A stretch of DNA of 12,358 nucleotides from Candidatus Avacholeplasma faecigallinarum (GTDB lineage: Bacteria; Bacillota_I; Bacilli_A; Acholeplasmatales; Anaeroplasmataceae): contig DVKU01000147.1 of NCBI GenBank assembly GCA_018715825.1, forward strand, positions 1 to 12,358, read 5' to 3'. Below are positions 34-12,358 of the stretch, in pieces. How positions within the stretch are numbered: position 1 is the stretch's first letter; each line of letters begins with the position of its first letter. The notes under the pieces are model-generated. The model was not told the DNA's origin. It searched no databases and saw only the letters and a list, made by a program, of their open reading frames with translations. The position numbers were made by a program, and so were the translations under genes.

Positions 34-822
34 TTAGCATGTTACTTTATGTGCTAATCTTAATTTATCAGCAATCATAGCTATAAATTCAGAATTGGTA
101 GGTTTACTCTTATTATAACTAATTGTATAGGCAAATATTTGAGATATAGCCTCAACATTTCCTCTATTCCATGCGACCTCTATAGAATGTCTAATAGCTC
201 TTTCAACACGTGATGATGTAGTGTTAAATTTTTTGGCTATTGAAGGATATAATATTTTTGTTATACCTCCTAGAATATCAACATTGTTATAAACCATTGT
301 TATTGCTTCTCTAAGATACATATATCCTTTAATATGAGCTGGTACACCTATTTCGTGTAAAAGTTCAGTTATTTCACTATCTAGTGTTTTCTCTTCATTA
401 TCTATAGAAAGAGTTGTTTTCAAACTAAAACCTGATCCCTTTTTATTTTCTTCACTTAGTAGTGATTGAATTGTTTTTTGTAGGTTTGTTAAATCAATTG
501 GCTTAACTATAAAATAGTCAGCTCCTAATTGAGATACCTTAGATATTATAGATTCTGTGTTAAATGCTGTAAGCATTACGATTTTTTTGGGGCGATGATA
601 TTTTTTATTTGAATTGATTTCTGATAATACATTTACACCATCCATTTCTGGCATAAAAACATCTAAAAGAAGTATATCACAAGATTCAGACTCTAAATGT
701 TGTAATAGATCCATTCCTGTATTAAATGTTTTTACAATTTCAATATTTGGTTGCATTTTTAGAAATTCAGAAACCATACATAATAATTCTTTATTGTCAT
801 CAGCCACTATAATTTTTGCCAT
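34..822 (-). CDS. spo0A: Spo0A, sporulation master response regulator
   Basis: This 262-residue protein is a full-length Spo0A, the cytoplasmic phosphorelay-controlled DNA-binding regulator that commits the cell to sporulation. The N-terminal receiver domain (about 1-122) has the acidic pair D8/D9, the phospho-acceptor D54 in [12 protein letters not shown], the switch T85 and the conserved K107 in IVKPID. After a linker, the effector domain (about 148-262) carries hallmark Spo0A stretches: [12 protein letters not shown] (156-167), YLREAI (169-174), the recognition segment [16 protein letters not shown] (203-218) and [17 protein letters not shown] near the end. The ATG follows AGGGAGGA (829-836) at a good distance. 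Length is typical and no key residue is missing. In many Bacillota spo0A follows spoIVB; here the gene upstream on the same strand is instead a pectin methylesterase. Spo0A boxes upstream suggest autoregulation. Identity is essentially certain. Confidence 0.97.
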
Positions 823-1006: not shown

Positions 1007-1948
1007 TTAAAGGTCAAAATTTCCTAAAAAATCATTGAAGCTTTTTAAATAATCTTTTGCCTCCTGATCATTTAAAACTTTAATCCATGGAGCCCTTTTG
1101 GTCATATCAATATTTAATGAGTATTCATAAAACCTAGCAGTCTTATCTCTATTGGTATTACCCCATTTGTTATAGCCGATAGGATTAATGTGTTCTGCCA
1201 TATTACATAAGATAAATGCGGCACATCCATAGTCACGCCATGGCCTTGCTAAATATACATTTGAACAACCATTTTCACAAATAATATCGCATATATAGAA
1301 TAAAAAACCGTATTGTAGTTCTTTTTTATGAGAAGGAGCACAAATATATCCATTAGGTTCATTAAGAATTTTATCCATTCTAGCTAAACTAACAATCTTA
1401 CACTCATAAAATAATGCTGTTGCTCCACCAAAAATAAAATCCACATCTCCTATGATAGTACAATTTTTATATATTTGTTTTGAACTTTTATCCACTAAAA
1501 AATAATTAGGAAGAAAATCTTTATATCTTTGTATTAAATTTGCAGGAAGTGGACCAGTGAATAGAGTATCCTGCGCACTTTTAATAATACAATTTTCACA
1601 TTGAAAATTATTTCCTTGAACATGTAGAGCAACAGCCTGACCATATTTGTTAGATGGTATAGCTGAATTTTCAATAGTAAGATTCTTTAATCTTACATTA
1701 TTGCCATTGATAAACATTGTGTATGTTCTAAAGGTGTTGCATTCATTATTATCGCTCATAATTTTATGATAGAAATCATGGTTAGTGATAACAGTAGAAG
1801 AAGGTTCTTCACCAATAATAGTAATATCATTAGCTAATATTTCTATTTTTTCTTTATAAATACCAGGTTTTAATAATAAAGTATCACCTGCTTTAAGAAT
1901 TTTTATAGTATCATTAATTGACATATCATTGGTTATAATATATTGCAT
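1007..1948 (-). CDS. Pectin methylesterase (CE8 family), predicted cytoplasmic
   Basis: This 313-residue protein is a carbohydrate-esterase family 8 pectinesterase, which removes methyl groups from methyl-galacturonate residues and releases methanol. The right-handed beta-helix signatures appear in order: GQAVAL with Q104, SAQDTLFTG with the acid/base D127, GDVDFIFGG with the nucleophile D170, GFLFYICDI (214-222), and ARPW with the substrate-binding R235 and W237. The catalytic set is complete; only the usual Gly before RPW is Ala. The protein starts MQYIITNDMS, with no signal peptide or lipobox, so it should act inside the cell on imported oligogalacturonides rather than on polymeric pectin. 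The ATG is preceded by AAGGAG (1954-1959). It is transcribed divergently from the transporter operon. Family assignment is firm; substrate size and location are inferred. Confidence 0.93.
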   Translation of the reverse strand: MQYIITNDMSINDTIKILKAGDTLLLKPGIYKEKIEILANDITIIGEEPSSTVITNHDFYHKIMSDNNECNTFRTYTMFINGNNVRLKNLTIENSAIPSNKYGQAVALHVQGNNFQCENCIIKSAQDTLFTGPLPANLIQRYKDFLPNYFLVDKSSKQIYKNCTIIGDVDFIFGGATALFYECKIVSLARMDKILNEPNGYICAPSHKKELQYGFLFYICDIICENGCSNVYLARPWRDYGCAAFILCNMAEHINPIGYNKWGNTNRDKTARFYEYSLNIDMTKRAPWIKVLNDQEAKDYLKSFNDFLGNFDL

Positions 1949-2239: not shown

Positions 2240-3016
2240 ATTAGTGTAAATAAATATAAAATTGTTGATTTAATTATATTAATAGTAATTGGTTGTCTTC
2301 TTGAGGGATTTATCACTAAAATATCAGGCTATGTGCTTATGGCAGCACCAACATTTACTTTTGGAATGTTAATAACTTTTGTTGCTATTGCTAGATGGAA
2401 TCTTTGGGGTATGATTGTTATTCCATTTATGGCAGCGGCTAATGTTGTTGGTGGTATGTTCAATGATATAGACTATCTAAAGGCTATGTACACCGAATTG
2501 CCATGGCAATTATTTATCTCTACAGTAGTTGGATTTTTGCCTATGGGAATTAATGTGATTTTTTATAAAAAATTTACAACAAAGAAAGTATTACATGACT
2601 CATTTGTAATGATTGGATTAGTTTTATTAAATTATGGTTTGTTTTGCCTGTTTCAATTCTTATCTATTAGACTGTTAACTACGGGTAGTATTTTTGAAAT
2701 TGGTGAAATAATAGTCAATCAGCCAATAAAAAATCCAGATACGGGTGTTATGGAGAACATAACACATAATATATGTGTGTTTGCTCAATCTGGTTATATA
2801 TATAATTTATTGGGATTGTTTATTACCATAATTGGTTTATTTATTTTAAGGTCACAAGGAGTTGTTAACAATGTTGTTGACAAGCTTATTGATGATAAAA
2901 AGATGGTTGAATCAAATTTAGAGGATGAAAAGAATTTCTCTATAGCTGAGAGTGAATCTAAAGATGATAAAACCGAACCTGAATCACACGACACAAATGA
3001 TTCAGATGAAAATTAA
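2240..3016 (+). CDS. Six-TM membrane protein of unknown function with acidic tail (probable ATT start)
   Basis: I do not recognise this family. The frame is open from the stop at 2228. Starting at GTG 2333 or ATG 2339 would cut off a clear hydrophobic segment, and neither has a ribosome-binding site. No ATG, GTG or TTG lies in frame between 2231 and 2332, but ATT 2240 follows GAGGTG (2229-2234) with 5 nt between. From there the protein has 258 residues with six likely membrane segments (about 8-24, 32-51, 55-72, 90-109, 119-143, 186-204) and a soluble C-terminal tail (about 214-258) very rich in Asp, Glu, Ser and Lys. Size and six-segment layout resemble ECF-type S-components, which is only a shape similarity. 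It is first in the operon, 16 bp before a permease gene, so a role linked to the importer is likely. Confidence 0.75.
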   Translation: MSVNKYKIVDLIILIVIGCLLEGFITKISGYVLMAAPTFTFGMLITFVAIARWNLWGMIVIPFMAAANVVGGMFNDIDYLKAMYTELPWQLFISTVVGFLPMGINVIFYKKFTTKKVLHDSFVMIGLVLLNYGLFCLFQFLSIRLLTTGSIFEIGEIIVNQPIKNPDTGVMENITHNICVFAQSGYIYNLLGLFITIIGLFILRSQGVVNNVVDKLIDDKKMVESNLEDEKNFSIAESESKDDKTEPESHDTNDSDEN

Positions 3017-3032
3017 GTTTTAAAAGGATGGT

Positions 3033-4061
3033 GTGTTGCGCATGCAAAAAGTTGTTGAGACAGATCAAAATGTTGTTAATTTGGTCGAACTTACAAAATG
3101 GAAACGTACACTTTATACACTTGCTAAAGATTGGCGTTTGTATGTATTGTTAATTCCAATGTTAGCCTTTTTAGTTTGTTTTAAATATCTTCCTATCGGA
3201 GGTATTTTGACAGGTTTTAAATGGGGCGATGATAACTCTTTAGTTTATAATACTCAATGGTGTGGTTTCTATTGGTTACAAAATATATTTGTTGGTTCTA
3301 ATGCTACATTATTCTGGTCTGCCTTTAGAAATACATTCGTTAATAGTATGTATGGATTATTAATAGGATTCCCTATTCCTATTTTCCTAGCACTATTGTT
3401 TAGTGAAATTAAAAATCAAGGCTATAGAAGCTTTTTACAGGTAGCTGCTTATTTACCTCACTTCGTATCATTAGTTGTTGTTACAACAATTATTACATTG
3501 TGGTGTGAGGCTCCAAGAGGAATGCTATATCAATTGATGGTTAAAATAGGAGCAGCAGTAGATGATAAAGGTGATGTATTCACTACTACATTATTAAGAC
3601 AACCTAAATTCTTTAGACCTATATATCAGGTATCAGGAGTTTGGGAAGGCGCTGGTTATGGCTCTATAGTTTATTTTGCCGCTATTATAGCTATATCACC
3701 AACAAGTTATGAAGCTGCAAGAATTGATGGTGCTTCAAAATTACAACAAATCCGTTATGTTACATTGCCTGGTATGGCTCCAACATTAACAATTATGTTG
3801 ATTATGCGTATAGGTCAAATCTTAAATATCGGATATGAAAAAATCATATTATTAGTAAATGATAAACGTGAAGCATGGGAAACTGCAGATGTTATTTCAA
3901 CATTAGTTTATCGTATGAGTGGTAAATCTGGAGCTGAAGGTGTTACCCCTATTCCTCAAGTTGGTATTGTTGCGGATTTATTTAATGCAATTATAGCAAT
4001 GTGCTTGGTATTAGGTGCAAATGCTATTAGTAGACGTGTATCATCTACTTCATTGTTCTAA
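3033..4061 (+). CDS. Sugar ABC transporter permease, LplB type (CUT1)
   Basis: This roughly 342-residue inner-membrane protein is one of the two permease subunits of a CUT1-family carbohydrate importer. About six hydrophobic segments are visible (near 36-51, 104-122, 142-157, 208-222, 250-265, 315-334). The cytoplasmic EAA loop that docks on the ATPase, YEAARIDGASKLQQIRYVTLP, lies around 226-246 and is intact. The region from about residue 100 on matches the binding-protein-dependent transport domain, and the N-terminal KYLPIGGI stretch is typical of LplB/YtcP-like proteins. Start choice is uncertain: AAAAGG (3022-3027) sits 5 nt from GTG 3033 and 8 nt from TTG 3036, while ATG 3042 is rather far, so a non-ATG start is favoured. 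It is followed by its partner permease 18 bp later. An oligogalacturonide substrate is inferred from neighbours. Confidence 0.92.
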   Translation: MLRMQKVVETDQNVVNLVELTKWKRTLYTLAKDWRLYVLLIPMLAFLVCFKYLPIGGILTGFKWGDDNSLVYNTQWCGFYWLQNIFVGSNATLFWSAFRNTFVNSMYGLLIGFPIPIFLALLFSEIKNQGYRSFLQVAAYLPHFVSLVVVTTIITLWCEAPRGMLYQLMVKIGAAVDDKGDVFTTTLLRQPKFFRPIYQVSGVWEGAGYGSIVYFAAIIAISPTSYEAARIDGASKLQQIRYVTLPGMAPTLTIMLIMRIGQILNIGYEKIILLVNDKREAWETADVISTLVYRMSGKSGAEGVTPIPQVGIVADLFNAIIAMCLVLGANAISRRVSSTSLF

Positions 4062-4079
4062 TATTGGGAGGAATTGCAA

Positions 4080-4952
4080 ATGAAAAGACTAGATAGATCT
4101 GAAATAATTTTTAAAATATTATCATATGTATTGTTGACAATTTTTGCACTATGCTGTCTATATCCATTTTTATTTATATTGTCAAACTCAATATCAGGAA
4201 AAGATGCAGTATTACAAGGAAAGGTTTTCTTTTGGCCTATTGATATACAATTCGATACATATAAGTATGTATTAGAATCAAAAGGTTTCTGGTTATCTTA
4301 TTGTAACTCTTTCTTTATCACAATGTATGGTACTTTAGTTTCAATGCTTGTTGCAATAACAGGTGCTTATGCATTATCAAAGACAAGATTGATGTTTGGC
4401 CGTGGATTTAACTTTATGTTAGTATTTACAATGTGGTTCAATGCAGGTATGATTCCTACATTACAAAACTTCTTAAGATTTAATGTTACAAATCGTGAAA
4501 TGTTCATTATAGCTTTAGGTTTTAATGCATTTAACATTGTATTATTAAGAAACTATTTTAGTGGTATTCCAACTGAAATAGAAGAAGCTGCTACAATAGA
4601 TGGTGCAACTGAATTCCAAATTTTAACTAAGGTTTATATTCCAATGTCTAAATCTTCAATTGTAACAGTTGCTATGTTCTATGCTGTATCTCGTTGGAAT
4701 GGTTATCTATGGGCTCAAATGCTATTAGGCCAAGATGATCAGCCATTGACAGTATATATTAAAGTTACATTAAAAACTATTCTTGACCAAATTGAACAAA
4801 GTGGTAGTACAGATCCAAAGTTAGCAAATGTTTCAACATACGCTTTGCAATATGCTTTTATAGTTTGTTCTATCATTCCAGTCATCATTGTATATCCTAA
4901 ATTGCAAAAGTATTTTGCAGCAGGTGTCAATGTTGGTGGAGTTAAAGAATAA
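4080..4952 (+). CDS. Sugar ABC transporter permease, YtcP type (CUT1)
   Basis: This 290-residue protein is the second permease subunit of the CUT1 importer. Six likely membrane segments are seen, with the EAA loop IEEAATIDGATEFQILTKVY at about 167-186 and the C-terminal PKLQKYFAAGVNVGGVKE, a conserved ending in this subfamily. The start is ATG 4080, which is 8 nt after GGGAGG (4066-4071). An in-frame TTG at 4074 is only 2 nt from that site and is rejected. The N-terminus has the usual short cytoplasmic segment, then a first membrane helix with LYPFLFILSNSIS. The gene lies 18 bp after the first permease gene and 33 bp before the binding-protein gene, in the usual permease-permease-binding protein order. 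Assignment is firm; the substrate is inferred. Confidence 0.93.
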   Translation: MKRLDRSEIIFKILSYVLLTIFALCCLYPFLFILSNSISGKDAVLQGKVFFWPIDIQFDTYKYVLESKGFWLSYCNSFFITMYGTLVSMLVAITGAYALSKTRLMFGRGFNFMLVFTMWFNAGMIPTLQNFLRFNVTNREMFIIALGFNAFNIVLLRNYFSGIPTEIEEAATIDGATEFQILTKVYIPMSKSSIVTVAMFYAVSRWNGYLWAQMLLGQDDQPLTVYIKVTLKTILDQIEQSGSTDPKLANVSTYALQYAFIVCSIIPVIIVYPKLQKYFAAGVNVGGVKE

Positions 4953-4985
4953 TAGATAGAAAATAAGAAAAGGAGAAAAGGAAAA

Positions 4986-7211
4986 ATGAAAAAGAAAACA
5001 ATCGCTTTATGCGGACTTGCTGCAGTTGCTGGACTTTCACTAGCAAGCTGTGGTACAGACACAACAGGCCTTGATATTTACATTAATTATCAAGGTGCTT
5101 CAGGAATCACTTACCAAGGCGCAAGTGCATTCACAAACACTATTGAAGAGAAGACATACACTACCGGTGTATTACTTCCAACATGGCAGGCATTTTCTGA
5201 TAATTTAAATATTAAATTTAGAGATGCTTCAGGCTACACAACAGATGCAGATAATGATACTTATAACCTAGTTCAATCAAAAGGCTATGTATCAGATACT
5301 GATGCAAAACAAAAAATTGATTTATTCTACAATACTACTGCAAATATCAATAAAATGGGTAATGCAGGTGATGCTGTAAACTTAGTAGACCATTTAGATG
5401 AAATGCCAAACTTTAAGGCTTTCTTAGAGGCTAACCCTACAATTAGAAAAACTCTAGAGCAATCTGGTGCTATCTACTATACTCCATATTTCGATGGATA
5501 TAACGATATTGAAAGAATGTTCGTTATGGACACACAAATTGCTGAAAAGGTTATTGATACAACAGATTTAAATCAATTTGATACTGGAACAACAAATGGT
5601 GGTTCTAACCCAAGTAAAAATGTTGTTCAAAGTGGTTCTTATCAACCATATATGGGCGATAACAACTATAGAGCTGATGCAATAGGTACTGATGGTAAAG
5701 TTGAAGTTTCAGTTGTTGGTACTGATGGAAAAGCTACAAAAGCTAAACTAAATGTTGTAGAAAATATTATAAAGCAACAAAATGCTTTATTAGCAAATGG
5801 TTGTACAGGTAAACAATTAGCTGAACAATTCCAAAAATATTTAAAAGATGTTTATGGTGATCTTGTTGGTGATGGTAAATTATATTCTAAATATTCAGAA
5901 GTATTTACAAGTATTTCTGCAATTTACACACCAGATGATTTAATTGCTTTAATGCGTGTTGTTAAGGCAAATCCTAAATTAATCACTGGTGATGGTACAA
6001 AAGAAATTGAAACATTCTTCCCTCGTGGTCAAGCTAATAACCGTGTTGATAACATTGCTGATATGTTACAATTATGGGGAATTCAAGGTATGGTTTCTGA
6101 AAAGGAAATGCTTTATTTCTCTGCTGATGGTAAATTAAGAGATGCTGCAACTACTCAAGCTACATATGATGGATTAGAGTATTTAAAGGCTATTTATAAG
6201 GAAGGATTAATTCTAGATAAATTCTGGGATAAACCAGCTTCTACATCTGGTACAGCATACCTAGATAAGTATTTTAAGAAAACTACTAATGATGCTGAAT
6301 ATGGATTTATGATGTACGACTATGCTGCAGCAACTACAGCTTCAAATGATATGGTTGATGGTGTTGGTACTGATCCAACTTCTCGTAAGATTCCTTATTC
6401 TTCAAAAGGTATTATGCCAATTTTACCTCCTCTTGCTTACTGGAATACAGGCGTAAACCAAGATAGCACATTAAAAGCTACTTTAGTTCGTCATGCTGAT
6501 GAAAACAGAACATTAAAGAGTAACTCTTGGTGTATTCCTACTACTTCAGATAATATTGCTGATGCTATAAAATTAATGGATTATATGTTCTCTGAAGAAG
6601 GAGCTAGAATCCAAGATTTCGGTCCTGAACAATATTGGGAAGATGATTTAAAAGTTATTGCTGGTGAAGAATCACCTGTATTAAATGAAAAAACTAGACA
6701 AATGTTAGCTGAATCTGGTAAAGATTTCTGGACATTTATGCGTGAAAATATCGGTTCAACTCATGGTATCGGATGTGAGCGTTCAAAAGCATTAGACGTT
6801 CAAGCAACTAACTCTTATGGTCAAATAGGTTTAAATAACTTAAAGACTGCTATTGCAGTAGGTGTAGTTAATTCTTCATTAGTTGATAAAGTTATTGGTA
6901 CAAATACATGGGATACATCAGTTCCTACTGCTGGATATCCTTCAATTTCAGCTGATAATCAAGCTAAATATGCTGGTTTAACTGCATTCTGGTCTTCTGA
7001 TAAGTGCTCTGATAAACCTGCTGGTTGGGTTATGTGGATTTCTCAAGATTGTGATGATACTACAGTATTAGGTACTGATGCTAATAAGGCAAGCTATACT
7101 ATGGCTACTGTAAAAGAGCAAATGTCAATAAAGAATGAAATCTACTTATATCAATATGCTAAGAGTATTGGTGATAGTGCTATTCCTTCTGAATTGCAAC
7201 CTACAAATTAA
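4986..7211 (+). CDS. Extracellular solute-binding lipoprotein of the importer (unusually long)
   Basis: This 741-residue protein is the substrate-binding lipoprotein of the importer. Residues 1-22 form a lipoprotein signal: MKKK, a hydrophobic core, then lipobox LASC with C22 as the lipid-anchored residue. The mature part has features of the LplA/YtcQ-like group: VNLVDHLDEMPNF (131-143), YYTPYFDG (164-171), GIMPILPPLAYW (475-486), KSNSWCIPTT (511-520) and LMDYMFSEEGARIQDFGPEQYW (530-551). It is clearly longer than the 400-560 residues usual for the family. A polar Gly/Asp/Asn-rich stretch about 200-335, with two copies of GTDGK (234-238, 245-249), looks like an insertion, and YQGAS occurs twice near the mature N-terminus. 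AAGGAG (4970-4975) precedes the ATG by 10 nt. A strong hairpin follows the gene, which fits higher expression of this subunit. Confidence 0.92.
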   Translation: MKKKTIALCGLAAVAGLSLASCGTDTTGLDIYINYQGASGITYQGASAFTNTIEEKTYTTGVLLPTWQAFSDNLNIKFRDASGYTTDADNDTYNLVQSKGYVSDTDAKQKIDLFYNTTANINKMGNAGDAVNLVDHLDEMPNFKAFLEANPTIRKTLEQSGAIYYTPYFDGYNDIERMFVMDTQIAEKVIDTTDLNQFDTGTTNGGSNPSKNVVQSGSYQPYMGDNNYRADAIGTDGKVEVSVVGTDGKATKAKLNVVENIIKQQNALLANGCTGKQLAEQFQKYLKDVYGDLVGDGKLYSKYSEVFTSISAIYTPDDLIALMRVVKANPKLITGDGTKEIETFFPRGQANNRVDNIADMLQLWGIQGMVSEKEMLYFSADGKLRDAATTQATYDGLEYLKAIYKEGLILDKFWDKPASTSGTAYLDKYFKKTTNDAEYGFMMYDYAAATTASNDMVDGVGTDPTSRKIPYSSKGIMPILPPLAYWNTGVNQDSTLKATLVRHADENRTLKSNSWCIPTTSDNIADAIKLMDYMFSEEGARIQDFGPEQYWEDDLKVIAGEESPVLNEKTRQMLAESGKDFWTFMRENIGSTHGIGCERSKALDVQATNSYGQIGLNNLKTAIAVGVVNSSLVDKVIGTNTWDTSVPTAGYPSISADNQAKYAGLTAFWSSDKCSDKPAGWVMWISQDCDDTTVLGTDANKASYTMATVKEQMSIKNEIYLYQYAKSIGDSAIPSELQPTN

Positions 7212-7240
7212 TAATTTATTTTAAAATAATACTTTAGTGT

Positions 7241-7282
7241 GACCTTTGTGTATAGACCGAAAAGGTCTATACACATAAGGTT
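7241..7282 (+). other. Strong intercistronic hairpin after the binding-protein gene
   Basis: TGTGTATAGACC (7247-7258) pairs perfectly with GGTCTATACACA (7264-7275) around the loop GAAAA. GACCTT (7241-7246) extends the stem with AAGGTT (7277-7282) across a single bulged T (7276), giving about 18 bp. No U-run follows, so it is not a standard terminator. Its place between the binding-protein gene and later genes, ending 8 nt before a GGAGG site, suggests 3'-end protection of the upstream message, partial termination, or control of the next gene's translation. Confidence 0.8.
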
Positions 7283-7302
7283 TATAATTAGGAGGTTAAA
7301 AA

Positions 7303-8049
7303 ATGTCTAAATTTTTAACAAGTAAGGCGAAATATTTTTATTTTGCTTTTGGAATTTTAATGTTTGTTACATTAATAGCATCATTGTTTTATATGTCACA
7401 GTACGCACATATTCATGTGTATTATGTTCAATCACCTACAGGTTCACATGTAATAGCTAGAGATACAGAAGATGCATTGGGAAATACTAACCAATTAATG
7501 TGGGATTTCTTTGAGGAAACAAGTGATACTACATTTGCAAAAGATTTTAATCAATATAAAGAAATAGTATTTGATTATCAACAATCTATGAGTTCTTTTA
7601 ATAACATAATACTTTATTATGCTCTTACTGGAATAGTTTGTTTTGCAATATTGTTAGTGTTATCAAATCACAATAGAAGAATTTATTATAAAAGTAATTT
7701 ATATGGTGGTATAATTTTACCAGGAATCGTTTCAATTTTTTCAATTGTAATGATTATTATGAATACAATGTTAATGGGAACTTTTAACAATAATTTTGAA
7801 TTATTCAATCGTGTATCAGTATTACAAAATCCAGATACAAAGGTTGAAGCATCTAAACAAATTAATAATATCCAATATTTAAAAGATTTGTATAGCTGTG
7901 ATTCAACTACATACATTATTTATGATGTATTATTCTTATTAGTTTGCCTATATTCAATATTCCTAATTGCCACTGCTATTATTAAATATAAAGCAACTGG
8001 AAAGGAAAGAAAAGAAATTATTGAAAAGGTGGTAATGAGCAATGATTAA
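7303..8049 (+). CDS. Four-TM membrane protein of unknown function
   Basis: I do not recognise this 248-residue protein. It has four likely membrane segments (about 12-30, 101-120, 134-157, 203-227). A long polar loop of roughly 70 residues (31-100), rich in Tyr, His, Asp and Thr and starting SQYAHIHVYYVQSPTG, lies between the first two segments and is predicted to face outside. A second loop (158-202) is also predicted external, and the C-terminus is charged and cytoplasmic. There is no lipobox or cleavable signal. ATG 7303 follows GGAGG (7291-7295) at 7 nt. Its stop overlaps the next gene by 8 nt, so the two are probably translationally coupled. Lying between the binding-protein and ATPase genes, it could be an accessory subunit facing the binding lipoprotein; that is inference. 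Confidence 0.85.
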   Translation: MSKFLTSKAKYFYFAFGILMFVTLIASLFYMSQYAHIHVYYVQSPTGSHVIARDTEDALGNTNQLMWDFFEETSDTTFAKDFNQYKEIVFDYQQSMSSFNNIILYYALTGIVCFAILLVLSNHNRRIYYKSNLYGGIILPGIVSIFSIVMIIMNTMLMGTFNNNFELFNRVSVLQNPDTKVEASKQINNIQYLKDLYSCDSTTYIIYDVLFLLVCLYSIFLIATAIIKYKATGKERKEIIEKVVMSND

Positions 8050-8653
8050 TAATGAAATGGAAAATAAGGGTTCGCTTAATACAATGTCAGATTTAGAATT
8101 TGATAAAAATTCAGTTGAAATGATGCGCTATAGAGCGAATAGTTTATCATATACTTTAGGTTTTGTTGCTATTTTATGTAGTTTATTTGCTGCATTCATT
8201 TGTTTAAATAGTACACAACCTATCACTTTTGCAATTATTTTAAAAATTATATTAAATATAATTATTTTACTAGGTGGCTTTTTATGCTGTGAAAAAGCTA
8301 AAGCGTATTCAAAAAATGCCTCAATTGGCTTAATGGTTTTTGGTGGTATTTGTATTGCTAGAATTTTTTGGATACCTTTGCAGTTAATCATCTATTATTC
8401 AAAATATTTAACAGCACTAAGTACACAAGATAAGGCTTTAGAAAATGAAGCTTTAAAATATTTAGGTTTACCAATTACTGGTGTAAATACAGGTGGAGCT
8501 AACGCATGGTTACCATCTAGTGGTTATGTTAGAGCTACTATTGCTATTGTTTTACTTTGTTTAGCTGGTTTATTCTTTATTTTATCTGGTATAATAGGTT
8601 ATGCTAGATCTAAAAAGTTGAATACATATTTAGATAGCCTTAAGAAAAATTAG
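8042..8653 (+). CDS. Four-TM membrane protein of unknown function, coupled to the previous gene
   Basis: I do not recognise this 203-residue protein. A polar, probably cytoplasmic N-terminus (1-35) ends with MMRYRANSLSY, followed by segments at about 36-55, 61-83, 94-119 and 163-187. The first three are close together, and a loop of about 45 residues (120-162) containing GVNTGGANAWLPSSG precedes the last. The C-terminus is short and Lys-rich. ATG 8042 is 9 nt after AAAAGGTGG (8024-8032), which lies inside the previous gene; a second in-frame ATG at 8057 is too far from that site. The 8-nt overlap with the upstream gene implies coupled translation and roughly equal amounts of the two proteins. 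The AGGAGG of the ATPase gene follows within a few bases. Confidence 0.85.
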   Translation: MINNEMENKGSLNTMSDLEFDKNSVEMMRYRANSLSYTLGFVAILCSLFAAFICLNSTQPITFAIILKIILNIIILLGGFLCCEKAKAYSKNASIGLMVFGGICIARIFWIPLQLIIYYSKYLTALSTQDKALENEALKYLGLPITGVNTGGANAWLPSSGYVRATIAIVLLCLAGLFFILSGIIGYARSKKLNTYLDSLKKN

Positions 8654-8670
8654 GATAGGAGGATTATGAG

Positions 8671-9771
8671 ATGTCTGCAGATGTAATTTTAAAGGATGTC
8701 AATAAGGTATATCCTAATGGCTTCCATGCTGTATATGATTTTAACATAGAAATTGAAAAAGGTGAGTTCATTGTACTAGCTGGTCCTTCTGGATGTGGAA
8801 AGTCTACCACTTTACGTATGATAGCTGGTCTTGAGGAAATTTCTTCAGGTGATTTGATTATCAATGGTAAACGTGTAAACAATGTTGCACCTAAGGATAG
8901 AGATATAGCTATGGTTTTCCAAAACTATGCCCTATATGCACATATGACAGTTTATCACAATATGGCCTTTTCTCTAACTATTAGAAAAGTTGATCCAGTT
9001 GAAATTCATGCTCGAGTAATGAAAGCAGCTGAGATTTTAGGATTAGTTCCATATCTAAATCGTAAGCCAAAACAACTTTCTGGTGGTCAACGTCAACGTG
9101 TTGCTTGTGGTCGTGCTATAGTACGTGACCCAGTAGTTTTCTTATTAGATGAACCTCTATCTAACTTGGATGCTAAATTACGTGGTTCAATGCGTAAAGA
9201 GTTGATGCAATTACATGAAAGATTAAATGCTACATTCGTATATGTAACTCACGATCAAATTGAAGCTTTAACTTTAGCTACAAGAATTGTAGTTATGAAA
9301 GATGGTTATGTTCAACAAATTGCTACTCCTAAGGAAATGTTTGATAAGCCTGAGAATCTATTTGTTGCAGGATTTATTGGTACTCCACCAATGAATATGG
9401 CTGATGGAACTATTAGCAATGATTGTCAATATTTTGAGCATGTTTCTGGCTTAAAGCTTAAGTTGACAGAACATCAAAGTGAAATTTTACAAAACTATGC
9501 TGGAAAAGCTGTTAAGATGGCTTCTCGTTCTGAGTATGTTTATATTGATGATGCTTCTCTTGCAAAACATAAGGATTCACAATTTGATATCCATGTTGAT
9601 TATACTGAATTTTTAGGTGCCTATAATTTAATTTACGGTACATTTGGTGGTCAAGATATCATCGCTAAAGTTTATAGTAGGGATGAAATTTCTGCTGATG
9701 TTATTCGTTCATGTTTTGATATGGAAAAGGTACATTTCTTTGATATTGAAACAACAAAGAGAATTAGATAA
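8671..9771 (+). CDS. ugpC: ABC transporter ATPase, UgpC/MsmX/MalK type
   Basis: This 366-residue protein is the nucleotide-binding subunit that powers CUT1 sugar importers; the symbol reflects the family name, not glycerol-phosphate transport. All motifs are intact: Walker A GPSGCGKST (38-46), Q-loop Q84, signature LSGGQ (136-140), Walker B VVFLLDEP (155-162) with D160 and catalytic E161, D-loop SNLD (164-167) and switch H194. The C-terminal part, from FIGTPPMNM (235-243) onward, is the MalK-like regulatory domain. ATG 8671 lies 8 nt after AGGAGG (8657-8662). Many Bacillota importers of the LplB/YtcP type lack their own ATPase and share MsmX, so a dedicated copy inside the operon makes this a self-contained transporter. 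It lies between two pairs of small membrane-protein genes. Confidence 0.95.
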   Translation: MSADVILKDVNKVYPNGFHAVYDFNIEIEKGEFIVLAGPSGCGKSTTLRMIAGLEEISSGDLIINGKRVNNVAPKDRDIAMVFQNYALYAHMTVYHNMAFSLTIRKVDPVEIHARVMKAAEILGLVPYLNRKPKQLSGGQRQRVACGRAIVRDPVVFLLDEPLSNLDAKLRGSMRKELMQLHERLNATFVYVTHDQIEALTLATRIVVMKDGYVQQIATPKEMFDKPENLFVAGFIGTPPMNMADGTISNDCQYFEHVSGLKLKLTEHQSEILQNYAGKAVKMASRSEYVYIDDASLAKHKDSQFDIHVDYTEFLGAYNLIYGTFGGQDIIAKVYSRDEISADVIRSCFDMEKVHFFDIETTKRIR

Positions 9772-9785
9772 GGGGGTAATTGACA

Positions 9786-10385
9786 GTGGAAAATAATAAT
9801 AATAATGTTGAAAAGAAGTCTACATTTAAGAAAATATTAAAAGTTTTGGGTACATATTTTAAAAATTTAGGTAGGGATATTGCTGCAAGTTTTAAGTATA
9901 ACAATATGAAATTACCTGGATTATTAGTATGTGTTCCTGGTGTATTTTTAGGATTCTTCCTAGTTTTCCATGCCCCTGTTGTTAAAGGTTTGTCATATCA
10001 AAGCTTAACATATGAAGGCGGTTATTATCTTGGTATTTCATTTGATCCAACAGCAATATTGTTATTTATATTAGTACTTTCTGGTATTTTAAATATTTTT
10101 GCTGGTGTAACTATGATGGGAAAGAAAAATTTAGGTTCTGTGGTTAGAGCTTGTATTACATCTTCTGTTGTAGTTTTAAGTGGAATTGCTTACATTGTAT
10201 TTTTATTCCTATTTGTTATTGGTGTAAATAGTGGTTACATTTCTGTTGCTTCTATGAATAATGTTGTTAATTTTAACTTTATTATGTCTCTTGCTTCAGT
10301 AATAGTTTCAATTGTAACTTGTATAGTAGGAATTGTTATAGGTTTCATTCGTTATGATAGAACATACGAAAAGGTTGATAGATAA
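9786..10385 (+). CDS. Four-TM membrane protein of unknown function
   Basis: I do not recognise this 199-residue protein. The start is probably GTG 9786, 9 nt after AGGGGG (9771-9776); TTG 9780 is in frame but only 3 nt from that site. The N-terminus has five Asn encoded by five AAT codons, then a Lys-rich cytoplasmic stretch. Membrane segments are seen at about 43-64, 87-111, 120-148 and 163-188. A loop of about 22 residues rich in Tyr and Gly (65-86) lies between the first two. The C-terminus is short and charged. Its stop and the next ATG share one base (TAATG), so the pair is probably translationally coupled. It follows the ATPase gene by 14 bp. Residues suggesting an enzyme were not seen. 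Confidence 0.82.
   Translation: MENNNNNVEKKSTFKKILKVLGTYFKNLGRDIAASFKYNNMKLPGLLVCVPGVFLGFFLVFHAPVVKGLSYQSLTYEGGYYLGISFDPTAILLFILVLSGILNIFAGVTMMGKKNLGSVVRACITSSVVVLSGIAYIVFLFLFVIGVNSGYISVASMNNVVNFNFIMSLASVIVSIVTCIVGIVIGFIRYDRTYEKVDR
9792..9806 (+). repeat. Five tandem AAT codons at the N-terminus
   Basis: Two codons after the likely GTG start, AAT is repeated five times and encodes five Asn. Changes in copy number would keep the frame, so any slippage would alter only the length of the Asn tract. It is short and may have no role. Confidence 0.5.
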
Positions 10386-10972
10386 TGAGTAAAAAAGTAA
10401 AAGATGTTTCTAACGAAGATATTAATCCTTATGAACTTGATAAATTATCTAAAGTTCCGTCTTGGTTGATCATTCTTATACTAAAGTATTGGGCAGCTGC
10501 GGCTGCCGTTTTCTTTATAGCAATTGGTGGTATAGATATTGGTTTTGATTTCTCCCAAAATCAATTTACTGACTATGCATCTATTATGGCTGAAAGTTTT
10601 ATTCTAGTAGTATTAATAGCTTTATTTACAGCTATCTTTATAAATTATATAGTAAGACCTTTGACACGATTGATGTACAATAGAAGAAATAATACATTTA
10701 GATATAACATGATAAATATGAAGGGCTTTAAATCATTTATATTGGCTCTAATATATTCTTTTGCTATTACAATTATATTGTTTTTTATAACAATGCTATT
10801 AAGTTATAAAGGATGGGTTTTAAATGTATTTGGTAGATCTGATGGTGGTATAGAACCATTTACATATGCTTTATGCTTTATTGTAGTTGATGCTATATTT
10901 TTATTAATTAAAAATCTAATTATAATGTTATATCAACGTATTAAATATAAAATGCAGATTAGAGGTGAATAA
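10385..10972 (+). CDS. Four-TM membrane protein of unknown function, coupled to the previous gene
   Basis: I do not recognise this 195-residue protein. A charged cytoplasmic N-terminus (1-26) is followed by membrane segments at about 27-50, 68-90, 115-139 and 157-181. The cytoplasmic loop between the second and third (91-114) is strongly basic (RPLTRLMYNRRNNTFRYN), and the C-terminus is also basic, which sets the orientation. The ATG overlaps the previous stop by one base (TAATG), and no separate strong ribosome-binding site is seen, so it probably depends on translation of the upstream gene. It lies between the transporter genes and the polygalacturonase gene, whose ATG is 2 nt past this stop. 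General layout resembles the other three small four-TM proteins, but I see no convincing sequence identity by eye. Confidence 0.84.
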   Translation: MSKKVKDVSNEDINPYELDKLSKVPSWLIILILKYWAAAAAVFFIAIGGIDIGFDFSQNQFTDYASIMAESFILVVLIALFTAIFINYIVRPLTRLMYNRRNNTFRYNMINMKGFKSFILALIYSFAITIILFFITMLLSYKGWVLNVFGRSDGGIEPFTYALCFIVVDAIFLLIKNLIIMLYQRIKYKMQIRGE

Positions 10973-10974
10973 TT

Positions 10975-12358
10975 ATGGATTTTAATACTATTTTTATTAG
11001 TTCTAGAAGTGTTACCATAGAACTTGTTAATGATGATATTTTTGAAACTACTGCCTATAGTATTTTTCTTAATGATCAATTATATTTAGAAAATCAAACT
11101 AAAAATGTATTTTCAATTTTTAATTTGTCTCCCAATACTGAATATAAAATTGAAATTAAAAATAATAACAGTTCACTTCATAAAAATTTTGTTACAAAAG
11201 ATGAATATGTTACACTTAATGTAAAAAAATTTGGTGCTAAAGGTGATGGTGTTACCTTAGATACAAATGCTATTCAGGCATGTATTTTGTCATGTCCTAA
11301 TAATGGTAGGGTCTTTTTTCCAAAAGGCAATTATTATACTGGGCCTATTTTCCTAAAGAGTAATATTACCATTGAACTAGATAAAGATGCTAAATTATTA
11401 GGTGATATTAATCGAGAGCATTATCCAGTTTTACCAGGCGTAGTATATACTACTGACGAACAGGATGAATATAATCTTGGTTCATGGGAAGGTAATCCTT
11501 TGGATTGTTTTGCAAGTATAATTACGGGTATTAATGTTGAAAATGTATCTATAATAGGACAAGGAGTTATTGATGGGAATGCCCAAAACAGTGATTGGTG
11601 GGTAGACGTTAGAACAAAAAGAATTGCATGGAGACCTCGTGGTGTATTTTTAAATCATTGTAAAAATATAACCCTACAAGGAGTTACAGTTATGAATACC
11701 CCATCATGGAATTTACATCCATATTTTTCCGAAGATTTGAAGTTTTTGGATTTGAAATTAATAAATCCTAAAAATTCACCTAACACAGATGGTTGTGATC
11801 CTGAATCATGTAAAAATGTCGATATAATAGGTGTTTATTTTTCAGTTGGTGATGATTGTATAGCTATTAAATCTGGTAAAATTTATATGGGACGCAAGCA
11901 TAAAAAACCATCTGAAAATTTTAATATTCGCAATTGTTCAATGAATTTTGGTCATGGTGCAATCGTTTTAGGTAGTGAAATGTCTGGTGGCATTAAAAAT
12001 ATAGATGTTTGTAGATGCCTTTTTAATCAAACAGATAGAGGATTACGTATAAAGACAAGACGAGGTAGAGGTAAGGATGCTATTATTGATGGTATTACTT
12101 TTGAAAATATAAAAATGTCTGACGTTCTAACTCCATTAGTAATAAATATGTTTTATTATTGTGATCCTGATGGTCATACTGAATATGTATATTCTAAGGA
12201 TAAATTACCTGTTGATGATAGAACACCATATTTAGGTAATTTTGTTTTCAAAAATATTGAATGTAGTAATGTTAATGTAGCAGCTGGAACATTTTATGGA
12301 TTGCCAGAACAACCAATTAAACATATAGAAATAAATAATGTTACCTTCCATTATGCTG
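10975..12358 (+). CDS. GH28 polygalacturonase, predicted cytoplasmic (3' end beyond window)
   Basis: The frame is open from ATG 10975 to the window edge (461 codons, no stop). It encodes a glycoside hydrolase family 28 enzyme, which hydrolyses alpha-1,4-galacturonosyl bonds. All four GH28 signatures are intact: NTDGCDP with D272, GDDC with D293/D294, GHGAIVLGSE with H327, and RGLRIKTRRGRG with R358 and K360. A beta-rich N-terminal region of about 75 residues precedes the helix domain (which begins near VKKFGAKGDG, 83-92) and resembles the FN3-like module of exo-acting bacterial members. There is no signal peptide, so it should act in the cytoplasm on imported oligogalacturonides. AGAGGTG (10961-10967) precedes the ATG by 7 nt and lies inside the previous gene. 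By family length, roughly 50-60 residues are missing. Confidence 0.93.
   Translation, partial: MDFNTIFISSRSVTIELVNDDIFETTAYSIFLNDQLYLENQTKNVFSIFNLSPNTEYKIEIKNNNSSLHKNFVTKDEYVTLNVKKFGAKGDGVTLDTNAIQACILSCPNNGRVFFPKGNYYTGPIFLKSNITIELDKDAKLLGDINREHYPVLPGVVYTTDEQDEYNLGSWEGNPLDCFASIITGINVENVSIIGQGVIDGNAQNSDWWVDVRTKRIAWRPRGVFLNHCKNITLQGVTVMNTPSWNLHPYFSEDLKFLDLKLINPKNSPNTDGCDPESCKNVDIIGVYFSVGDDCIAIKSGKIYMGRKHKKPSENFNIRNCSMNFGHGAIVLGSEMSGGIKNIDVCRCLFNQTDRGLRIKTRRGRGKDAIIDGITFENIKMSDVLTPLVINMFYYCDPDGHTEYVYSKDKLPVDDRTPYLGNFVFKNIECSNVNVAAGTFYGLPEQPIKHIEINNVTFHYA

Follow-up and report, generated by a model that had tools for sequence, protein, structure and literature searches.

The window analysed here is a stretch of 12,358 nucleotides from Candidatus Avacholeplasma faecigallinarum, and it represents an entire contig (C128) of a 1.28 Mb genome with an estimated completeness of 79%. 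It carries an operon in the order M1 - permB - permC - binding protein - M2 - M3 - ATPase - M4 - M5 - GH28 (Table 1), in which the full core of a CUT1 sugar importer (binding protein, two permeases and ATPase) is interleaved with the genes of five further membrane proteins, designated M1 to M5. In most descriptions a Type I sugar importer is a kit of four parts, and the relation of the five additional proteins to this kit is the subject of the present analysis. A preliminary description made from the sequence alone had placed the five membrane genes and the four importer genes correctly, either exactly or within a few codons, and its complete CUT1 core, its counts of transmembrane (TM) helices (six in M1, four each in M2 to M5) and its overlaps of 8 nucleotides (nt) between M2 and M3 (M3 ATG at 8042; M2 stop at 8047-8049) and 1 nt between M4 and M5 (TAATG, 10383-10387) were all reproduced. 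According to the predicted topology, both the N and C ends of M1-M5 lie on the K/R-rich side.

Table 1 Coordinates of the genes and other elements of the window (TM, transmembrane; ECF, energy-coupling factor; aa, amino acids).
Feature	Position	Strand	Description	Basis
M1	2240..3016	+	Six-TM protein at operon head; ATT start; possible ECF S-component-like fold	
permB	3033..4061	+	AlgM1/LplB-type permease, unit group	
permC	4074..4952	+	Second permease	Pfam/NCBIfam
Binding protein	4986..7211	+	AlgQ-like binding lipoprotein, about 740 aa; ~110-aa insert relative to AlgQ1	
RNA hairpin	7242..7281	+	Between binding protein gene and M2	
M2	7303..8049	+	Four-TM protein with long outside loops	
M3	8042..8653	+	Four-TM protein; fused to M2 or ATPase in some relatives	
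ATPase	8671..9771	+	MalK/UgpC type	Pfam/NCBIfam
M4	9780..10385	+	Four-TM protein; start 9780 or 9786	
M5	10385..10972	+	Four-TM protein	
GH28	10975..12357	+	Polygalacturonase without N-terminal hydrophobic segment; runs off contig; substrate cargo	
Pectinesterase	1007..1948	-	Divergent from operon; without evident signal sequence; substrate context	
Spo0A	34-822	-		PF08769 E 6.9e-44

The association of the M proteins with a particular importer was assessed across the order of the host, where 94 places bearing an M3 homologue were compared with 96 places of permB-like permeases of the unit group (unit-type permeases) at a distance of 8 kb. Within this distance of a unit-type permease lay 79 of the 94 M3 places, the remaining 15 being situated on contigs without any unit-type permease match, so that homologues scattered away from such transporters, which the preliminary description had named as a refuting outcome, were not observed. 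Conversely, 79 of the 96 unit-type permeases had M3 nearby as against 0 of the 48 other LplB-like permeases of the order; the profile whose scores separate unit-type from other permeases was itself derived from unit members, so that a gap between the two groups is favoured. A phylogenetic tree that included 83 unit permeases and 20 others placed the unit rows in one group (support 100/97; 100% of 200 bootstrap trees), and in view of several long-branch rows a single origin is not contradicted, rather than demonstrated.

The other LplB-like importers (type 2) share the permease superfamily and the bacterial order with the unit and served as controls. They differ in the membrane complement: 20 of the 48 loci were examined and no match to M1-M5 at E 0.001 was obtained in any of the 20. 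A single protein of 187-219 aa with five to six hydrophobic segments adjoins the importer genes in eight of these 20 loci (L176, L180, L182, L184, L188, L189, L191 and L193); five such proteins were tested and no Pfam family was found at E 0.01. A relationship between M1 and the six-TM protein beside type-2 importers was considered and discarded, since profile comparison shows no similarity.

The core of the importer is of a known kind and it is the five M proteins that constitute the addition. In a search of the PDB, the permB profile had AlgM1 from the alginate importer of Sphingomonas as its best match (E 2.4e-99, profile positions 22-336 of 336), the next best permease being at 8e-8, and the binding-protein profile matched AlgQ1/AlgQ2 at E 1.5e-23 to 6.6e-20 as well as further chains at about 1e-16 to 1e-15, which we take to be a glycosaminoglycan-binding protein. 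The second permease and the MalK-type ATPase of the operon were recognised by Pfam/NCBIfam families and not by direct comparison with AlgM2 and AlgS. The unit thus resembles the AlgM1M2SQ2 type of importer in having a nearly full-length AlgM1 homologue and an AlgQ-like binding protein, in the uronate substrates that are implied and in an adjoining depolymerase without N-terminal hydrophobic segment, and the CUT1 label given earlier holds for the importer core and can be narrowed to the AlgM1/LplB-AlgQ branch. In Sphingomonas, AlgM1 and AlgM2 form a heterodimer that is combined with a homodimer of AlgS, and AlgQ1/AlgQ2 deliver the polysaccharide to this importer (PMC7055323); the consulted portion of that article describes it without further membrane subunits, whereas five more membrane genes accompany the unit here. 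A second difference is seen in the binding protein, with about 740 aa as compared with about 490 in the PDB chains; between the two parts matched to AlgQ1 there are 171 profile positions against 55 residues, i.e. roughly 110 extra.

Nothing at cut-off was found for M1-M5 in Pfam or NCBIfam, in agreement with the earlier remark that no family could be recognised for them; the other refuting outcome named there, a confident match to a known unrelated family, was not obtained either. Scans of relatives (M1, M3 and M5 in Pfam, M2 in NCBIfam) gave weak and scattered matches only; for M4, the scan covered the window protein and one relative. The M1, M3 and M5 profiles found no relative by sequence in the PDB. 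Two assignments were rejected, namely M2 to the MSC_0882 family (matched at E up to 0.01 by 2 of 31 members, well short of the cut-off) and M5 to DUF6057 (3 of 46 members, best 9.7e-5). M2-M5 as mutual copies were likewise set aside after comparison of four pairs (M2/M3, M2/M4, M3/M4 and M5/M1), which matched over 27-37 columns with a probability of at most 34%. Speaking against full independence of the families, the M1 profile after three iterations also recruited eight M2 sequences and one M4 sequence, with a best E of 5e-12 among the matches listed, which is read here as drift of a hydrophobic profile, an actual relation between M1 and M2 being the less likely cause. Divergence is fast, with a mean column identity of 16-40% for the five proteins within the bacterial family. 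An N-terminal extension of about 100-300 residues is carried by M3 in L105, L109, L110, L053, L054 and L070. Titles and abstract openings of the open-licence PMC literature contained no description of the nine-gene set that was found by our search.

The distribution of the M proteins exceeds what chance would give, as can be deciphered from the 55 genomes of the family, where M3 was matched in 48, M5 in 49 and both in all 31 genomes of good quality. At wider ranks, the M3 profile matched 74 of 160 genomes of the order, a wider M3 profile matched 43 of 395 genomes drawn from the class, and a draw from the phylum gave M3 in 27 of 392 genomes, every one of which belongs to that class, two of the matches being marginal (E 1e-4 to 1e-3). 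For a survey of gene content 90 loci were annotated, namely the window itself, 69 loci selected because M3 or M5 was hit there and 20 taken from the list of permeases. The complete set of nine was detected in 65 loci, and 17 were cut by a contig or locus end. In two of the eight remaining loci (L204 and L205) no importer gene follows permC before the contig stops, and the other six are weighed below. The unit is retained under seven family labels (f1, f2, f4, f12, f19, f21 and f24) and several types of cargo, and it is also found in the single-contig genomes G148 (L093; 1,877,792 bases) and G063 (L095; 1,554,229 bases). Rearrangements comprise a binding protein gene that has moved (L051, L055, L103, L104 and L208), a second copy of it upstream (L062), M4 upstream of the ATPase (L094) and an extra ATPase gene upstream of M1 (L162, L165 and L168).

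Natural fusions and gene overlaps are indicative of partnerships among these proteins. M2 and M3 are encoded as one polypeptide in five of the 90 loci (L095, L101, L108, L171 and L213) and M3 and the ATPase in one (L172). With gene starts chosen by a simple rule, M2 and M3 overlap in 53 of 71 loci (median -8 nt), M4 and M5 in 38 of 68 (median -1) and M1 and permB in 38 of 76. A heteromeric M2-M3 pair, for which either a natural fusion or a fixed gene coupling was looked for, is supported by the fusions and the conserved overlap, and a predicted position of M3 next to the ATPase is supported by the L172 fusion, while the frequent 1-nt overlap is the one sign that suggests an M4-M5 pair. Of the two heteromeric complexes considered possible earlier, M2-M3 is supported and M4-M5 is suggested by that overlap. 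In three of the fusions (L171, L101 and L213) the M2 and M3 halves are separated by about 130 additional residues, in which further hydrophobic segments occur.

The genes adjoining the unit vary; where the role of a cargo is recognised, its targets are mainly glycans that contain uronate, which accords with AlgQ-like binding. A GH28 gene with neither a heparinase-type nor an alginate-type label is present in 51 of the 90 loci; in L093 a KDPG/KHG-type aldolase comes next, L103 and L104 carry alginate-lyase-family enzymes, L105 and L172 carry DUF4962 and heparinase II/III-like enzymes and L094 carries GH43 and GH88, and the two genes scanned in L160 encode an isomerase-like barrel and a regulator. 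Since the units carry differing uronate-related enzymes, M1-M5 go with the transporter rather than with one substrate. The label 'heparinase-type' was given to 12 loci and 'alginate-type' to four, on the basis of Pfam scans of L105, L172, L103 and L104 and of similar downstream genes in the rest. Among the heparinase-type loci, the best relative bears the same label in 12 of 12 cases for permC, the binding protein, M2, ATPase, M4 and M5, in 11 for permB, in 10 for M3 and in 8 for M1; L211, an edge-cut locus without known cargo, is the best relative in three of the four deviating M1 cases and in the one deviating permB case. The alginate-type label agrees for every detected protein except M4, the single M4 detected having a heparinase-type best relative. 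The nine genes would thus largely switch type together.

With regard to the site of digestion, 52 of 52 GH28 proteins had no strongly hydrophobic stretch within their first 40 residues, whereas an N-terminal hydrophobic stretch was present in 66 of 80 binding proteins as against 3 of 46 pectinesterases, and at least one of these three (L064) has an evidently over-extended start. The oligomers, possibly methylated, are therefore probably finished inside the cell. Pectate lyase domains were found in 18 of the 20 genomes tested, many of them in open reading frames of several hundred to >3000 aa, and cutting outside by these enzymes, whose export is presumed, probably comes first.

Structure models were obtained for M1 and for the M2-M3 fusion. 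The M1 model is confident (predicted local distance difference test, pLDDT, 89.9; predicted TM-score, pTM, 0.81); it was compared by Foldseek, and ranks 2 and 3 were occupied by 4huq chain S, which is presumably an ECF S component, and ThiT 4tkr, with non-significant E of 0.78 and 0.90, TM-scores by target length of 0.54 and 0.44 and probabilities of 0.77 and 0.57. Of the 50 matches listed, no others are plausible neighbours in the PDB, which weakly suggests an ECF S-component fold for M1. It differs from the S components in having no sequence match to any S-component family, there being no ECF family among the Pfam families matched by 29 M1 members at E up to 1, and no EcfT/EcfA-type genes were noticed in the window. 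The M2-M3 model, built from an alignment of five fusions and 22 M3 rows, consists mostly of long helices (pLDDT 81.7, pTM 0.57). Among the 50 matches listed for it none had an E <0.001, those of highest probability being synaptogyrin (0.92; E 0.79) and a designed helix bundle (0.90; E 0.69).

Taken together, the linkage, the permease tree, the cargo and the fusions strongly support that M1-M5 belong to the importer. It can be presumed, with a probability of roughly 0.6, that they are obligate subunits or dedicated partners, in complex or in dedicated partnership with the core, of a nine-component ATP-binding cassette (ABC) importer that takes up acidic oligosaccharides or short polymers rich in uronate. 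Going by homology, the AlgQ-like lipoprotein would capture the sugar outside, the AlgM1-like and the second permease would form the channel and the MalK/AlgS-type ATPase would drive import, after which GH28 and the pectinesterase, both without evident signal, would finish digestion inside. M1-M5 would sit in the membrane around this core, with M2 and M3 as a pair, M3 near the ATPase and M4 and M5 probably as a second pair. A possible but tentative elaboration is a membrane annex of five new families, adding 22 TM helices around an alginate-type importer, that passes long acidic chains and in which M1 is S-component-like. The specific role is more doubtful still; most likely M1-M5 would offer the enlarged binding protein a docking site and would stabilise the channel or act as its gate, helping long, highly charged chains through.

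Several observations weigh against this reading. An M3 hit was lacking near 17 of the 96 unit permeases; of the 12 of these that were inspected, 11 lie at contig ends and one (L175) is M3-positive by the wider profile. In L104, L163, L208 and L209 the M4 place is taken by a four-TM open reading frame that the M4 profile does not match (L209 also has no binding protein gene, which in its relatives lies further downstream), and M5 is absent in L094 and L159 though the locus extends past its place; some parts are thus either dispensable or not recognisable. The core type can presumably work without M-like partners, to go by the composition of the Sphingomonas A1 importer in the consulted part of its description, and given the pectate lyase domains in 18 of 20 genomes the import of whole polymers is not required. 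Neither of the two fold searches (M1, M2-M3) returned an E below 0.001, and the contact of M1-M5 with the core, their stoichiometry and their role are inferred here from the genes.

The preliminary description had left open whether the five proteins are accessory importer subunits or a second membrane machine. The latter, for instance a platform at the surface for binding polysaccharide or retaining secreted lyases, which would be co-made with the importer without being joined to it, is unlikely. Five families with 22 predicted TM helices could suffice for a device of its own, and some genomes have very long frames bearing pectate lyase domains; against this stand the M2-M3 and M3-ATPase fusions, the absence of any M3 place beside other LplB-like permeases and the interleaving of M and importer genes in a mostly kept order. 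Importer membership is favoured because of these fusions and because the nine genes for the most part follow cargo type together, and the earlier account is borne out in part, for importer membership and the M2-M3 partnership, with the M4-M5 heteromer left to its overlap. Less probable again is that M1-M5 are assembly factors or chaperones which leave after building the importer: the linkage evidence, with tight spacing and overlaps of M and core genes, fits this too, but five proteins to assemble one importer would be unusual, and genomes with two or three units (G051, G057, G097 and G239) keep an M set in each. Hitch-hiking of ordinary small membrane proteins in the operon, with which the fast divergence would agree as for unconstrained passengers, is very improbable, being largely refuted by the control loci, the permease association and tree and the keeping of the set across seven family labels and several cargo types.

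A whole group of importers has thus retained five extra membrane proteins while substrates and host genomes changed. Should M1-M5 indeed be subunits, this would change the picture of how ABC importers are constructed and give direct access to the question of how fragments of acidic polysaccharides are carried across a single membrane. Their presence in one particle would amount to a new importer architecture, and five unnamed protein families gain a concrete, testable workplace.

Concerning gene starts, the M1 frame opens at 2231 and a plausible start is the ATT at 2240, 5 nt downstream of GAGGTG. The first ATG/GTG/TTG of the frame, at 2333, would remove helix 1; the window thus has no canonical start that retains the first helix, while many relatives have one near the place corresponding to 2231-2245. 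The candidates for M4 are TTG 9780 and GTG 9786.

The hairpin between the binding protein gene and M2 is strong (minimum free energy z -6.1). Among 65 homologous intergenes that were folded, 52 of the 58 with at least 40 nt have a hairpin with z below -3 as against 0 of 78 coding controls, and the short ones are without it. The hairpin perhaps protects or trims the message, leaving the binding protein in excess of the membrane subunits.

A wall-less lifestyle was considered as the cause of the extra proteins and rejected, as 9 of 23 unit-bearing genomes, that of the window included, have penicillin-binding transpeptidases. Spo0A is the master regulator of sporulation, and its gene occurs here in a genome grouped with Mollicutes relatives, alongside two penicillin-binding transpeptidase matches in the same genome.

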